NCBI GenBank assembly: GCA_016791475.1
Contig: JAEUWI010000016.1
Span: 1-64,000 of the forward strand
Length of the DNA: 64,000 bases
Reading direction: 5' to 3'
Source: Candidatus Hydrogenedentota bacterium
GTDB lineage: Bacteria > Hydrogenedentota > Hydrogenedentia > Hydrogenedentales > JAEUWI01
Part shown: in pieces, positions 15,380-20,624 of the stretch
Layout of the letters: every line of letters starts with the position of its first letter
Numbering within the stretch: position 1 is the stretch's first letter
The notes under the pieces: generated by a model
Databases searched by the model: none
What the model saw: only the letters and a program-made list of their open reading frames with translations
Told to the model about the DNA's origin: nothing
Translations under genes and position numbers: made by a program

Positions 15380-16657
15380 ATGTTGCGTGATACCAACAGA
15401 CGCCAGTTCTTGAAATCGGCCGCCTTGGCCCTGCCCGCCTTCTCCGCCTTGCGGCTGCAGGCCGAAGGCCCCGCGCCGAGCGAGAAAGTGACCCTCGGTT
15501 GTATCGGCCTCGGCATTCATGGGGGAAGCTACAACCTCCGCAATTTTCTGGAGATTCCCGAGGCCCGCGTGGTGGCCGTGTGCGACGTGTATGCCGATCG
15601 CTGTATTACCGCGCGGGACAAGGTGAACGAGGCCTATGCCAACCAGGATTGCGCGATTCATGCCGACTTCCGTGAGCTTCTGGCCCGCTCGGATATCGAC
15701 GGGGTCGTCATTTCCACCCCCGACCATTGGCACGTACTCATGTCCCTCATGGCGGCCCGCGCGGGCAAGGATGTCTTCTGCGAGAAGCCCACGCTCACCA
15801 TCGCCGAAGGCCGCACGCTGGTTAGCGAAATCGCCCGGACGGGCATCATTTATCAAGGCGGTATTGAAGATCGTTCAGTGGACATCTATCACCGCATGGC
15901 CGAGCTGGTGCGCAACGGTCGCCTGGGCAAGCTGGAGCGCATCCGCGTGGCCCTGCCGCCGGGGGATGCCTTCCCCAAAGAAGAGCCCGTGCCGGTGCCG
16001 GAGGGGCTGAACTACGATTTATGGCTGGGGCCCGCGCCCTTCTCGCCCTACACCCCCACCAAACTTGACGCGCAGCAATGGCGCAACCACTTCGACTACT
16101 CCGGGGGGAAACTGACGGACTGGGGCGCCCACCTCATCGACACCGCCCAGGTGGCCCTCTACGAAGAGCACGGCGGCCCGGTGGAGGTGGACGGCAAGGG
16201 GGAGTTTCCCGTGGACTGCATGGCCAATACCGCAACAACCTACGAGATCAACTACAAATACGCCAGCGGTGTGGAGATGCTCGTGAAATCCGACGGCACC
16301 GGCATCGGGTTTTACGGGAGCGACGGCTGGATCAAGAGCAAGGCCTGGCGCGAACCCATTGAAGCGAGCGACCCCGAGATCTTGAACGCGGTGTATCCCC
16401 CCGAAACCAACAAGATGTACCCCAGGCCCGTCGGCGAGCACCAGGCCTTTATCGACGGTGTGAAGTCGAGGAAATCTCCCTATTACTCGCCCGAAGATAT
16501 TCACCGATTGAGTACGACGATGCACCTCGGCAACATCTCCATGCGCCTGGGAAGAAAACTCGCGTGGGACGCGGCGAAAGAGGAGATCACGGGCGATGCC
16601 GAAGCCAACGCCATGCGATCAAGGCCGATGCGGGAGCCGTGGAGTTTGGAGGGGTAA
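15380..16657 (+). CDS. Gfo/Idh/MocA family oxidoreductase, Tat-exported
   Basis: A 425-residue NAD(P)-dependent sugar dehydrogenase-like protein with a twin-arginine signal (NRRQFLKSAAL, residues 6-16). The Rossmann domain has TLGCIGLGIHGG, VVAVCDVYADR and STPDHWH, then the family motif CEKPTLT near residue 138. The C-terminal domain has NYDLWLGPAP, GGKLTDWGAHLIDTAQ and EHQAFIDGVKSR, typical of the exported subgroup in planctomycete-like bacteria. These proteins are thought to act on oxidised sugars in the periplasm, possibly with tightly bound cofactor. The substrate is not inferable. Confidence 0.92.
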   Translation: MLRDTNRRQFLKSAALALPAFSALRLQAEGPAPSEKVTLGCIGLGIHGGSYNLRNFLEIPEARVVAVCDVYADRCITARDKVNEAYANQDCAIHADFRELLARSDIDGVVISTPDHWHVLMSLMAARAGKDVFCEKPTLTIAEGRTLVSEIARTGIIYQGGIEDRSVDIYHRMAELVRNGRLGKLERIRVALPPGDAFPKEEPVPVPEGLNYDLWLGPAPFSPYTPTKLDAQQWRNHFDYSGGKLTDWGAHLIDTAQVALYEEHGGPVEVDGKGEFPVDCMANTATTYEINYKYASGVEMLVKSDGTGIGFYGSDGWIKSKAWREPIEASDPEILNAVYPPETNKMYPRPVGEHQAFIDGVKSRKSPYYSPEDIHRLSTTMHLGNISMRLGRKLAWDAAKEEITGDAEANAMRSRPMREPWSLEG

Positions 16658-16702
16658 GAGGTGGCGGTTGCAAGGGGCACATTGATCTGGGTCGCGGGAA
16701 GA

Positions 16703-16952
16703 GGTACCCCCCCTGCCCCCCCGCAAGCGGGGGGGACCTCTGGGGTTTGTGGTGGCGGTGGCCCGCAAGCGGGAGCGGGGAGTTCCGCTTTGTCGACGGG
16801 TCAAGATGGGCCATTTCCACCTGAGAACTTGTCTGAGGGGCCGGTGTCGAATTCTCTCGCGGCGTCAATGCAGACCCAAAACAAACCCGGATCATGTATC
16901 AAAAACTCCGAGCCAAAGGTCCCCCCCGCTTGCGGGGGGGTAGGGGGGGTAC
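16703..16952. repeat. inverted pair of GC-rich palindromes (REPIN-like)
   Basis: Copy 1 (16703-16738) and copy 2 (16918-16952) are the same hairpin-forming sequence, with CCCCCCGCAAGCGGGGGG at its core, in opposite orientation around a 179-base spacer. The family also occurs at 178-310. Copy 2 is read in frame by the Hint gene and contributes about ten residues (VPPACGGVGG) just before the conserved PVEQLQPGDWV. The palindromes therefore appear to have landed at the 5' end of that gene. Confidence 0.85.
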
Positions 16953-17719
16953 TCCCGGTCGAGCAACTTCAACCCGGTGACTGGGTCTGTTCCAGACAAG
17001 GTACACCGTGCCAAGTCACCCGAATCCAAGCTTATCGCAACGCCGGGCAGATGGTCAGGGTGGGTTTCAACCACAACCAGTCCATCCTGCTCACCGGCGC
17101 TCACCTCGTCCTCAGTCAGCGGCGAGTTCGGCGACTTACGCCAGAGGGTGGATGGTCCGGGATACCTCTCACGAACTTTGGTCGCGCTCGGAGAATGCGC
17201 CACGCCATGTCGCCGCCGGAGTTGGCGGTCTGGAATAGACTTCGCAGCAGCCAACTCGGCGTAAAGTTTAGGGCTCAGCACCCGATCGGCAGTTATATCG
17301 CAGATTCTTACTGTCGCGAGGTCGGTTTGGTAGTCGAGATCGATGGTATCCAACATGGAGAGTCTCAAGCCGCCGGGCAATACGACAGAAGGCGCGATGC
17401 CTTTATGGAGAACTACGGGATGACCGTCCTCCGTTTCACGTCACACGAAGTCGGCCATCGCTTGGAGGAAATTATAAGCACCATCGCGCGCGTGGTTGGC
17501 CAACACACGATCAAGGGAGAGTCAGAAAAGCAGTGGCGTTTCGCCGAGGAACTTCGCGTGGGCGATGCAATCTATGGATGCCCCGCTGGGGGCCATCAAA
17601 TCGTCCAGTCAACCGTCTCAGAGGTTCACAATCTCGCGGCGTATGATGTTTGGGTCGAAAACCACGATTCGTTCCTCGTTTCTCAAGTGGCATTGCGCGA
17701 AGGCTACAGCGGCCTGTAG
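16868..17719 (+). CDS. Hint-domain protein with nested DUF559 endonuclease
   Basis: About 283 residues from the ATG at 16868. The frame is open from a GTG at 16661, but that extension is mostly translated palindromic repeat. Residues 30-95 give a Hint/intein-like N-part: PVEQLQPGDWV and the block-B-like LTGAHLV (Thr76, His79). Residues about 97-222 are a DUF559 (Vsr/PD-(D/E)XK-like) nuclease: RARRMRHAMSPPELAVWNRL, VKFRAQHPIGSYIADSYC, VVEIDGIQH and MTVLRF, with the Asp, Glu and His positions kept. Residues 223-283 return to Hint: WRFAEELRVGD and YDVWVENHDSFLV. The usual C-terminal HN is absent, so splicing is unlikely. It lies between two Gfo/Idh genes. Exact start and role are uncertain. Confidence 0.8.
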   Translation: MQTQNKPGSCIKNSEPKVPPACGGVGGVLPVEQLQPGDWVCSRQGTPCQVTRIQAYRNAGQMVRVGFNHNQSILLTGAHLVLSQRRVRRLTPEGGWSGIPLTNFGRARRMRHAMSPPELAVWNRLRSSQLGVKFRAQHPIGSYIADSYCREVGLVVEIDGIQHGESQAAGQYDRRRDAFMENYGMTVLRFTSHEVGHRLEEIISTIARVVGQHTIKGESEKQWRFAEELRVGDAIYGCPAGGHQIVQSTVSEVHNLAAYDVWVENHDSFLVSQVALREGYSGL

Positions 17720-17806
17720 GCCGTATTTGCTCCCCGGCTCACCCATCCACTACGATACCCAGCACACAAATCCACCCTGGATCACCTACATCCGAAAGGG
17801 CCTGTC

Positions 17807-19096
17807 TTGAAAACACGCAACGCCATTACCACTACACGGCGCAACTTCCTCCGCGCATCGACCGCCATCGGCCTCTTCACTATCGTTCCCCGCAAGGCCC
17901 TCGGCGGGCCGGGCGTCACTGCGCCGAGCGAAGAGCTCACCAAGGCCGTCATCGGCGTGGGCGGCATGGGCAAGGGGCACCTGAGCATGCCGGGCTCGCG
18001 CCTGCTCGCGGTGTGCGACGTGGACCGCAACCACCTCGCAAAAGCGATGGAAATCGGCAAACAGGTTACGGGCGACGACGTTGCGGGCTATGGCGACTTC
18101 CGCGAGGTGCTGGAGCGTAGCGACATCGATATTGTGCACATCCCCACGCCGCCTCACTGGCATGCGTTGATTTCCGTGGCCGCCGCCCGCGCAGGCAAGG
18201 ACATCTGGTGCGAGAAGCCCATGGCCCGCACGATCTATGAAAGCCAGCAGGTGGTCAAGGCGGTGCAGGAGCATGGGCGCATCTTTCGCCTGAACACGTG
18301 GTTCCGTTTCCAGGGCACATTCTACGGCATGGACTGCGACGTGAAGGAGATCAAGAAGGTCGTGGAGAATCGCCTCCTCGGCTGGCCGCTGAAGGTCACC
18401 GTGGGCGCAACCACGGGTTTCAACTGGAAAGTGGACCAGTGGAGCGGGCGTACGGATCTGAAGCCGGAGCCGGTGCCGGAGGTGCTTGATTACGACCTGT
18501 GGCTTGGGCCCGCGCCGTGGAAGCCCTACAGTGCGCACCGGACCCATGCGACCTTCCGGGGCTATTGGGATTACGACGGCGGCGGGCTCGGCGACATGGG
18601 CCAGCACTACCTCGATCCCGTTCAGTATCTTCTGGAGAAAGACGATACCGGTCCCGTGGAGATCGAAGTGGATGCGCCCCAGCAGCACGACGACGCCGTG
18701 GGTTCGTGGCGCAGGATTACGTACCGCTACGCCGACGGCTGCGAGATCATTCTCGACGGCGTGGGCGCGGATCAGGGCGCGGCCTATATCGAAGGTCCCG
18801 AAGGCAAACTCTTCCCGAAATTCGAATCGACCATCACCGGCCTGAAAGAGAAAGTGGCCGCACTGCCCGATCCCGCGCCACAGCTTGGCGACTTCTCCGA
18901 GGCGGTCCGCACGCGCCAGAAGTTCGCGCTGAACGAATCCAACGGCCACCGCTCCTGCTCCCTCGTCAATCTCGGCGTCATCGCCGTGCGCCTTGGCCGC
19001 AACCTGAAATACGACCCCGTGGCGGAACGCTTCATCGACGACGAAGGGGCCAACCGCCTCCTGAAGCAGCCCATGCGCGGCCCGTGGCAGATCTAG
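17807..19096 (+). CDS. Gfo/Idh/MocA family oxidoreductase, Tat-exported
   Basis: A 429-residue protein with a Tat signal (TTRRNFLRAST, residues 9-19). The NAD-binding domain shows AVIGVGGMGKGH, LAVCDVD and IPTPPHWHALIS, followed by CEKPMAR near residue 145. NTWFRFQG and the C-terminal YDLWLGPAPWKPY, GGGLGDMGQHYLDP and RPM/QPMRGPW ending match the exported Gfo/Idh group. It differs from the protein at 15380, so the two are paralogues rather than a recent duplication. A HEAT-repeat gene follows 22 bases downstream and is probably co-transcribed. Confidence 0.92.
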   Translation: MKTRNAITTTRRNFLRASTAIGLFTIVPRKALGGPGVTAPSEELTKAVIGVGGMGKGHLSMPGSRLLAVCDVDRNHLAKAMEIGKQVTGDDVAGYGDFREVLERSDIDIVHIPTPPHWHALISVAAARAGKDIWCEKPMARTIYESQQVVKAVQEHGRIFRLNTWFRFQGTFYGMDCDVKEIKKVVENRLLGWPLKVTVGATTGFNWKVDQWSGRTDLKPEPVPEVLDYDLWLGPAPWKPYSAHRTHATFRGYWDYDGGGLGDMGQHYLDPVQYLLEKDDTGPVEIEVDAPQQHDDAVGSWRRITYRYADGCEIILDGVGADQGAAYIEGPEGKLFPKFESTITGLKEKVAALPDPAPQLGDFSEAVRTRQKFALNESNGHRSCSLVNLGVIAVRLGRNLKYDPVAERFIDDEGANRLLKQPMRGPWQI

Positions 19097-19963: not shown

Positions 19964-20269
19964 ATGAGCACAATTCAAGTTGTATTGCCTCAAGAAGCTC
20001 TTAAGCTGTTCTGTGCCCGATGGTGTGTCAAAGAGCTGTCGCTCTTCGGTTCTGTGCTGCGCGATGACTTCCGCCCCGACAGTGATTTGGACGTTCTGGT
20101 AAGTTTTGAGGAAGAAGCGCACATTGGCTTGTGGGACATGGCCCAAATGGTGATCGAGCTGGAGTCCATGTTTGGGCGGAAGGTCGATTTAGTCGAAAAG
20201 GAGGCGCTCTCCAATCCGTATCGGAAGAAGGCGATTTTAGACCACCGCGAGATCGTGTATGCCGCTTGA
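19964..20269 (+). CDS. mntA: MNT-family nucleotidyltransferase antitoxin
   Basis: A 101-residue minimal nucleotidyltransferase. FGSVLRDDFRPDSDLDVLV fits GSX10DXD, with Gly29-Ser30 and Asp41/Asp43. In the characterised MntA-HepT systems the MNT protein neutralises the HEPN toxin by adding AMP to a tyrosine. The gene overlaps the HEPN gene by 11 bases, the usual order for this module. It has GAAAGGAGAG just upstream. Confidence 0.92.
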   Translation: MSTIQVVLPQEALKLFCARWCVKELSLFGSVLRDDFRPDSDLDVLVSFEEEAHIGLWDMAQMVIELESMFGRKVDLVEKEALSNPYRKKAILDHREIVYAA

Positions 20270-20624
20270 AAACCGCGACGAGTCGTACCTTTGGGATATG
20301 CTCAAGTATGCCCGCCGTGTTGTAATCCTGGTTGGTCGGACGCACTTTGAAGCCTATAAAAGCGATTGGGCGCTGCAGATGTCCATGGAACGCGCCATGG
20401 AGGTGATAGGTGAAGCGGCCCGACGAATTACTCCGGGATTTCGATCAGCCCATGCCGAGATACCCTGGGCACAGATTGTTGGCCAGCGCAATATCCTGGC
20501 CCATGAGTACGGTGAGATTCGATGCGAAAGAATTTGGGAAACGGCTACGGTTCATGTGCCGGAGCTAATCCTCTCTCTGGAGATATTGCTACCCGACGCG
20601 GCCACCCAGTTCGGGGAAGAGTGA
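20259..20624 (+). CDS. hepT: HEPN-domain toxin (HepT/DUF86)
   Basis: A 121-residue all-helical HEPN RNase-type protein. The catalytic RX4HXY motif is intact: Arg77, His82 and Tyr84 in RNILAHEYG. Tyr84 is the residue AMPylated in characterised HepT toxins. Overlap with the upstream MNT gene implies translational coupling. The pair functions as a toxin-antitoxin system, possibly in phage defence; targets are unknown here. A sulfatase gene follows 35 bases downstream on the same strand. Confidence 0.92.
   Translation: MPLENRDESYLWDMLKYARRVVILVGRTHFEAYKSDWALQMSMERAMEVIGEAARRITPGFRSAHAEIPWAQIVGQRNILAHEYGEIRCERIWETATVHVPELILSLEILLPDAATQFGEE

Follow-up and report, generated by a model that had tools for sequence, protein, structure and literature searches.

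What is an intein-like protein doing between two oxidoreductase genes of a Hydrogenedentota bacterium, its Hint domain split by a nuclease and its coding sequence harbouring a pair of palindromes? The open reading frame in question (16,661 to 17,719 on the forward strand; 352 amino acids; defined by frame, Pfam, AlphaFold and Foldseek) lies in a window, the whole stretch of DNA analysed here, of 64,000 nucleotides. Its neighbours are two Gfo/Idh-type oxidoreductase genes (15,380-16,657 and 17,807-19,096), and no methylase gene adjoins it, an absence whose significance will become apparent below. The frame is free of stops from 16,658 on and a Shine-Dalgarno GGAGG (16,648-16,652, forward strand) sits 8 nt 5' of a GTG at 16,661, inside the end of the upstream gene; GTG 16,661 is for these reasons the likely start codon (the neighbours' names and the GGAGG are sequence readings). 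A preliminary description had started the gene at ATG 16,868, which would remove the first Hint strand (GTLIW), a part of the fold in the AlphaFold model. Its translation and the motifs that it named are exact; the GTG start, a C-terminal extein-like remnant (GYSG for CGSG) and the palindromic repeat inside the gene are absent from it. Rfam gives no match within 16,000-18,500. Farther along (19,964-20,624), small neighbouring genes resemble, on sequence reading only, an MNT nucleotidyltransferase/HEPN (HepT) toxin-antitoxin pair.

A Hint domain and the nuclease within it

The order of parts along the 352 residues is: first Hint strand, long low-complexity loop, remainder of the Hint N-part, DUF559 nuclease, Hint C-part. 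The first strand, a remnant of intein block A (MAVARGTLIWVA, 16,661-16,696, forward strand; alignment A2 and model strand E8-11), lacks the Cys1 of its relatives (CVRKGTRVLxP). The rest of the N-part (LPVEQLQPGD ... LLTGAHLVL, 16,943-17,137, forward strand) retains the block B TxxH, and the C-part (WRFAEELRVGDAIY ... YDVWVENHDSFLV) occupies 17,525-17,698 on the same strand, both being placed by alignment and by the AlphaFold model. Between them lies DUF559 (17,183-17,494, forward strand; profile, alignment, Foldseek), with the candidate catalytic residues E187, D215, E226, D228, H232 and D242 all present.

Pfam recognizes the nuclease (E = 1.1e-26; PF04480 at 95.7 bits against a cut-off of 20.6), with sub-threshold Hint and PT-HINT fragments on both sides of it. 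The AlphaFold model, for which a 23-sequence alignment was the input, has a mean pLDDT of 79.5; most of the Hint and nuclease parts exceed 90, and values below 50 are confined to residues 25-93, which form the loop, and to the very end of the protein. In a Foldseek search of the PDB, Hint and intein structures (BIL2 6y75, TvoVMA, PI-SceI domain I, gp41-1) align across the interruption, and a profile search of PDB sequences finds the MjaKlbA intein (9e-4), matched on both sides of DUF559, with the Mtu RecA inteins weaker. Because the structural matches span the interruption, the model confirms that the two flanks make up a single Hint domain. The preliminary description had proposed just such an interrupted Hint fold and named structure prediction as its arbiter; the prediction, now made, sustains it, and Pfam and the structural matches likewise place DUF559 in the homing-endonuclease slot.

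That description had also surmised a kinship to EDxHD enzymes. The nuclease part matches the DUF559 structure 3hrl (TMt 0.86) and the catalytic domain of I-Bth0305I, 3r3p (TMt up to 0.75 for the window model; TM 0.69-0.80 of target for the window model and that of a methylase relative, L034, together), a likeness that the PDB sequence search does not detect. E187, D215, E226, H232 and D242 are invariant across the 23 members of the sequence alignment. As modelled, the domain has the EDxHD/Vsr-like catalytic fold, which the surmise had anticipated.

Nucleases of this kind are not strangers to inteins: inteins with Vsr-like nucleases have already been reported, and Dassa is said to have described, in 2009, EDxHD-type homing endonucleases with split inteins. 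What DUF559 shares with the EDxHD enzymes is the catalytic fold and, putatively, an invariant acidic/His residue set; it differs in lying inside one continuous Hint domain and in having no separate DNA-binding region. I-Bth0305I itself was reported with group I introns (PMC3943268). A DUF559 gene is named, with type II inteins and EDxHD, in the intein section of a report on Thermosynechococcus TA-1 (PMC9403480), in one sentence, for one genus, and with no account of site, anatomy, family or repeats.

The methylase inteins and their orphans

Relatives were drawn from the same order and from GTDB species genomes. The same Hint-DUF559 module occurs, splice residues complete, as an intein in N6/N4 DNA methyltransferases of seven phyla, at DP(T)↓CGSGTT (the arrow marks the junction): in Hydrogenedentota (L033), a Bacteroidetes bin (L034), Chloroflexi (L035, L041, L042, L043), Microcystis (L036, L038), Armatimonadota (L037), bacterium HR16 (L039), Nitrospira (L040), Desulfuromonadales (L045) and L046. 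That most of these copies come from metagenome bins counts against the explanation preferred below. The consensus junctions are DPT↓C(V/A)RKGT ... (V/I)HN↓CGSGTTA, with N-junction variants in Microcystis (DIT↓CLRKGT) and L046 (DCF↓C). Two copies are incomplete, L042 at a contig end and L043 through a frame break, and the other eleven read through both junctions in a single frame; every methylase copy with both junctions retains Cys/Ser1, TxxH, the C-terminal HN and a +1 Cys/Ser/Thr (alignment A2). The N6_N4_Mtase profile breaks off at position 188-190 (and resumes at 190 in L042). The uninterrupted CGSGTT site is found in seven order-mates (G062, G029, G017, G007, G026, G038, G046), and the window's own genome has an uninterrupted DFFCGSGTTA at C24. 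Intein profiles match many of the 23 members (PF14890, Intein_splicing, 14; TIGR01443, the C-terminal intein motif, 13), and the L034 intein model (pLDDT 89.8) finds inteins and I-Bth0305I as its structural matches (AlphaFold, Foldseek). The family as a whole is an intein, with a Hint fold lying in-frame within a conserved host protein, and the complete junctions predict that its full members splice out of methyltransferases at CGSGTT. Relatives with complete splice junctions, and empty sites to go with them, take the case beyond what the preliminary description had claimed and strengthen it. Like the LAGLIDADG and HNH inteins (PI-SceI, for example), these have an endonuclease set into the same loop of the Hint domain, interrupt the host protein at a conserved catalytic motif, and are sporadic, with empty alleles; unlike them, the nuclease is DUF559, and the window copy is without host protein and without splice residues.

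The window copy has departed far from this pattern. It begins A-V-A-R-G-T, without Cys1; its C splice junction (17,696-17,716, forward strand; alignments A1 and A2) has decayed to RE↓GYSGL in place of HN↓CGSGT, which bears out the earlier remark that the HN is missing and takes the +1 Cys away as well, leaving GYSG as an extein-like stub at the protein's C-terminus. Lacking Cys1, HN, +1 nucleophile and host protein, it does not qualify as an intein in its own right; the TxxH and all the nuclease residues that are invariant in the family have been retained (alignment). In the tree it forms a clade with two other orphans, L044, which sits between menB-like and menA-like genes, and L005 (support 99/95). 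Elsewhere in the tree orphans and methylase copies are intermixed with weak support, a point against the preferred explanation; a single origin of all orphans was rejected on this weakly supported scatter among methylase copies. The upstream gene has orthologues in G001, G003 and G004, followed there by different genes, which leaves no clean empty site for the window insertion. Searches of phages, plasmids and viral contigs returned DUF559 domain matches only, never the full Hint-DUF559, which argues against a viral origin. On thirteen viral contigs (L113-L125, most of them 4-9 kb long) there is a DUF559 match and no Hint.

Is such a protein still of use to anyone? Between the window copy and L044 the three codon positions differ by 0.43/0.27/0.64, and simulated neutral drift to comparable divergence yields some 10 stops and never zero. 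Given this codon-position pattern and the absence of the stops expected from neutral decay, the window protein is under purifying selection though unable to splice. It is best read as a splicing-dead orphan of an intein family that carries a DUF559 nuclease.

Palindromes inside and beside DUF559 genes

The loop within the Hint domain is itself a repeat. A REPIN-like element (TACCCCCCCTGCCCCCCCGCAAGCGGGGGGGACC ... GGTCCCCCCCGCTTGCGGGGGGGTAGGGGGGGTA, 16,705-16,951, forward strand; repeat comparison) is translated in frame as the disordered segment already noted at residues 25-93, and palindrome searches find in it a left palindrome, CCCCCCCGCAAGCGGGGGGG (16,716-16,735, forward strand), and an inverted right one (16,921-16,940, reverse strand; CCCCCCCGCTTGCGGGGGGG on the forward strand). 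The Hint-like N-part of the preliminary description accordingly stands as to motifs and fold, and loses the 'PPACGG' stretch near its supposed N-terminus, which is translated repeat and not Hint. The element shares its ends (TACCCCCC(T)G.CCCCCCGCAAGCGGGGGG ... CCCCCCGCTTGCGGGGGG.AGGGGGG.TA) with some 20 paired, REPIN-like repeats at other places in this genome; the core occurs 55-57 times in this genome, mostly as inverted pairs about 49 bp apart, so dispersed and paired as REPINs are. Another site of the same repeat family, a cluster of four related palindromes, one of them perfect, lies at 195-309 of the window. On one contig of G005 (G005:C129:29741-51940) a dozen core palindromes lie irregularly spaced and nearly all in the same orientation, as against the paired pattern of G000.

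Under a strict rule, 18 of 21 family members, across phyla, have triplex-type palindromes in this same Hint loop. The element ends of the window copy and L044 are identical over about 30 bp in proteins that are only about 50% identical. G061 has just two copies of the core, both within its Hint-DUF559 gene, and G024 has none outside the intein; in G021 and in G055, the core that recurs throughout the genome agrees with the one in or beside their own Hint-DUF559 genes. Not all genomes conform: G019 and G048, both without a strong DUF559 gene, likewise hold many copies of the G021 core.

Stand-alone DUF559 genes keep similar company. The loci examined were chosen by similarity to DUF559, and many are in metagenome bins. 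A first count, of all dyads, was confounded by intergenic position; later counts took only dyads with pyrimidine arms, used mirror images as controls, compared gaps with gaps and added two control families. Around 57 loci, pyrimidine-arm palindromes (CCTCCCC-N-GGGGAGG and kin) number 1.9 and 1.75 per kb in the flanking 300 bp and 0.04-0.19 per kb beyond 600 bp, with nearly no mirror-image motifs; gaps adjoining DUF559 hold 1.34 per kb, other gaps 0.28. Among 75 loci (strict rule), 39 have palindromes on both sides, 11 on one and 25, mostly Bacteroidota, on neither, the last being a further point against the preferred explanation. Where paired, their contexts fit an inverted arrangement better than a direct one (33 vs 3; p 2e-7). 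In a second set, treated by the same design, palindromes accompany 18 of 19 DUF559 loci, 3 of 30 Vsr loci and 0 of 20 Y1-transposase loci, and across 68 genomes of the order palindromes are more numerous where a strong DUF559 is present (p 7e-5 to 6e-4). Flanking palindromes accompany stand-alone DUF559 genes in many phyla (loci L052-L112, L009-L028, L149, L154, L161). In E. coli K-12-type DNA (L188), BoxC-like motifs lie directly downstream of ycjD, a DUF559 gene between sapF and fabI, at around 1120-1142 and 1297-1316. On a Synechocystis sp. B12 plasmid (L175, 1426-1990) a palindrome-DUF559-palindrome unit breaks a DUF1156 methylase gene, which is also frameshifted upstream.

Judged by form and not through published motif tables, the flanking palindromes would be BoxC/PIT motifs. 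The paper that describes BoxC, PIT and intrastrand-triplex motifs (PMC4666352) mentions neither DUF559 nor nuclease; its motifs are pyrimidine-arm palindromes that have a third C/G block beside them, at times form inverted pairs and are tied to instability. Here, in contrast, the palindromes flank DUF559 genes. In the literature searched, these palindromes come without a linked enzyme, no relevant report joins DUF559 to palindromes, and none describes a family of DUF559 inteins at the CGSGTT motif of methylases, its orphan lineage or a palindrome linkage; the link between DUF559 nucleases and BoxC-type palindromes is apparently unreported. The nearest parallel is with REPIN-RAYT systems (PMC3116915, PMC8266576), which share the paired inverted palindromes, the genome-wide population and the nuclease gene between palindromes, and differ in that the linked enzyme here is a Vsr-like DUF559 instead of a Y1 HUH transposase.

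What the nuclease may be doing

Is DUF559, then, a mere passenger, carried along as some other enzyme, such as a Y1/RAYT transposase, moves palindromes that happen to have DUF559 genes among them? Y1 transposases are common in these genomes (fourteen in the window's own) and could move the repeats, and G019 and G048 sustain palindrome populations without a strong DUF559 gene. The Y1 profile does not match the window protein, and the distribution of palindromes speaks against the suggestion: they shun the Y1 loci, are sparse at the Vsr loci and attend nearly all the DUF559 loci of the second set, and G061 keeps the core at the DNA level within its gene with no copy elsewhere. Passenger status is unlikely, though not far-fetched. 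A plain relic is slightly less likely still: on that view deletion of the host gene stranded a methylase intein, which now decays, functionless, around a repeat that had landed in a tolerant loop. Such decay would be in keeping with the loss of Cys1, HN and +1 Cys, the persisting CGSG-like stub and the different residues lacking in other orphans; it sits badly with 352 open codons whose third positions are the most diverged, with retained catalytic residues and the same state in several genomes, and with palindromes in that one loop in most of the family across phyla. A bacterial intein-like (BIL) domain whose retained role is protein autocleavage has in its favour that the best Foldseek match of the window model is a BIL domain; BILs are not known to carry an endonuclease, which the window protein has, and with Cys1 and HN both lost the standard cleavage chemistry is gone, which makes this very improbable. 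The toxin-maturation (PT-HINT/polymorphic toxin) relic offered in the preliminary description is scarcely credible: the C-part is weakly similar to PT-HINT (13 bits against a cut-off of 27.7), toxin and secretion domains are nowhere in the protein (Pfam), and its relatives are methylase inteins.

We prefer, with a probability of roughly 70%, to regard the window protein as a splicing-dead orphan of a DUF559 intein family whose nuclease is intact and would recognize the palindromes of its loop and help to move or recombine them. This reading builds on what is directly seen: how the protein folds and in what order its domains lie, that it descends from inteins, where the family inserts and which genomes keep the site empty, that the splice residues are gone, that selection acts on the protein, and that palindromes accompany DUF559. 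Full members would splice from N6/N4 DNA methyltransferases at CGSGTT, DUF559 probably cutting the empty methylase allele and so spreading the intein by homing. The orphan lineage would have relocated to intergenic sites and been retained as a free-standing Hint-DUF559 protein, its Hint loop holding two triplex-type palindromes, inverted with respect to each other and like those that flank stand-alone DUF559 genes. By analogy with RAYT transposases acting on REPINs, the nuclease may recognize and cleave at such palindromes and help to move or recombine them; the intein would then be one vehicle for a DUF559 that acts on BoxC/PIT-type palindromes. A bolder generalization, to which we give somewhat less than even odds, is that DUF559 nucleases mobilize BoxC/PIT/REPIN-like triplex palindromes across bacteria, with palindrome-DUF559-palindrome as the autonomous unit and the intein family as an offshoot whose Hint loop includes the translated palindromes, one and the same protein homing into methylase genes and acting on dispersed repeats.

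The repertoire of intein nucleases is widened to DUF559, a family that is very common and whose function is unknown; the target gene is defined, by the DNA methylase motif CGSGTT, and cultured hosts are to hand (Microcystis). As to what spreads the BoxC/PIT palindromes, a long-standing question, the association with repeats provides a candidate answer and is open to testing in E. coli K-12, in which ycjD adjoins such palindromes.
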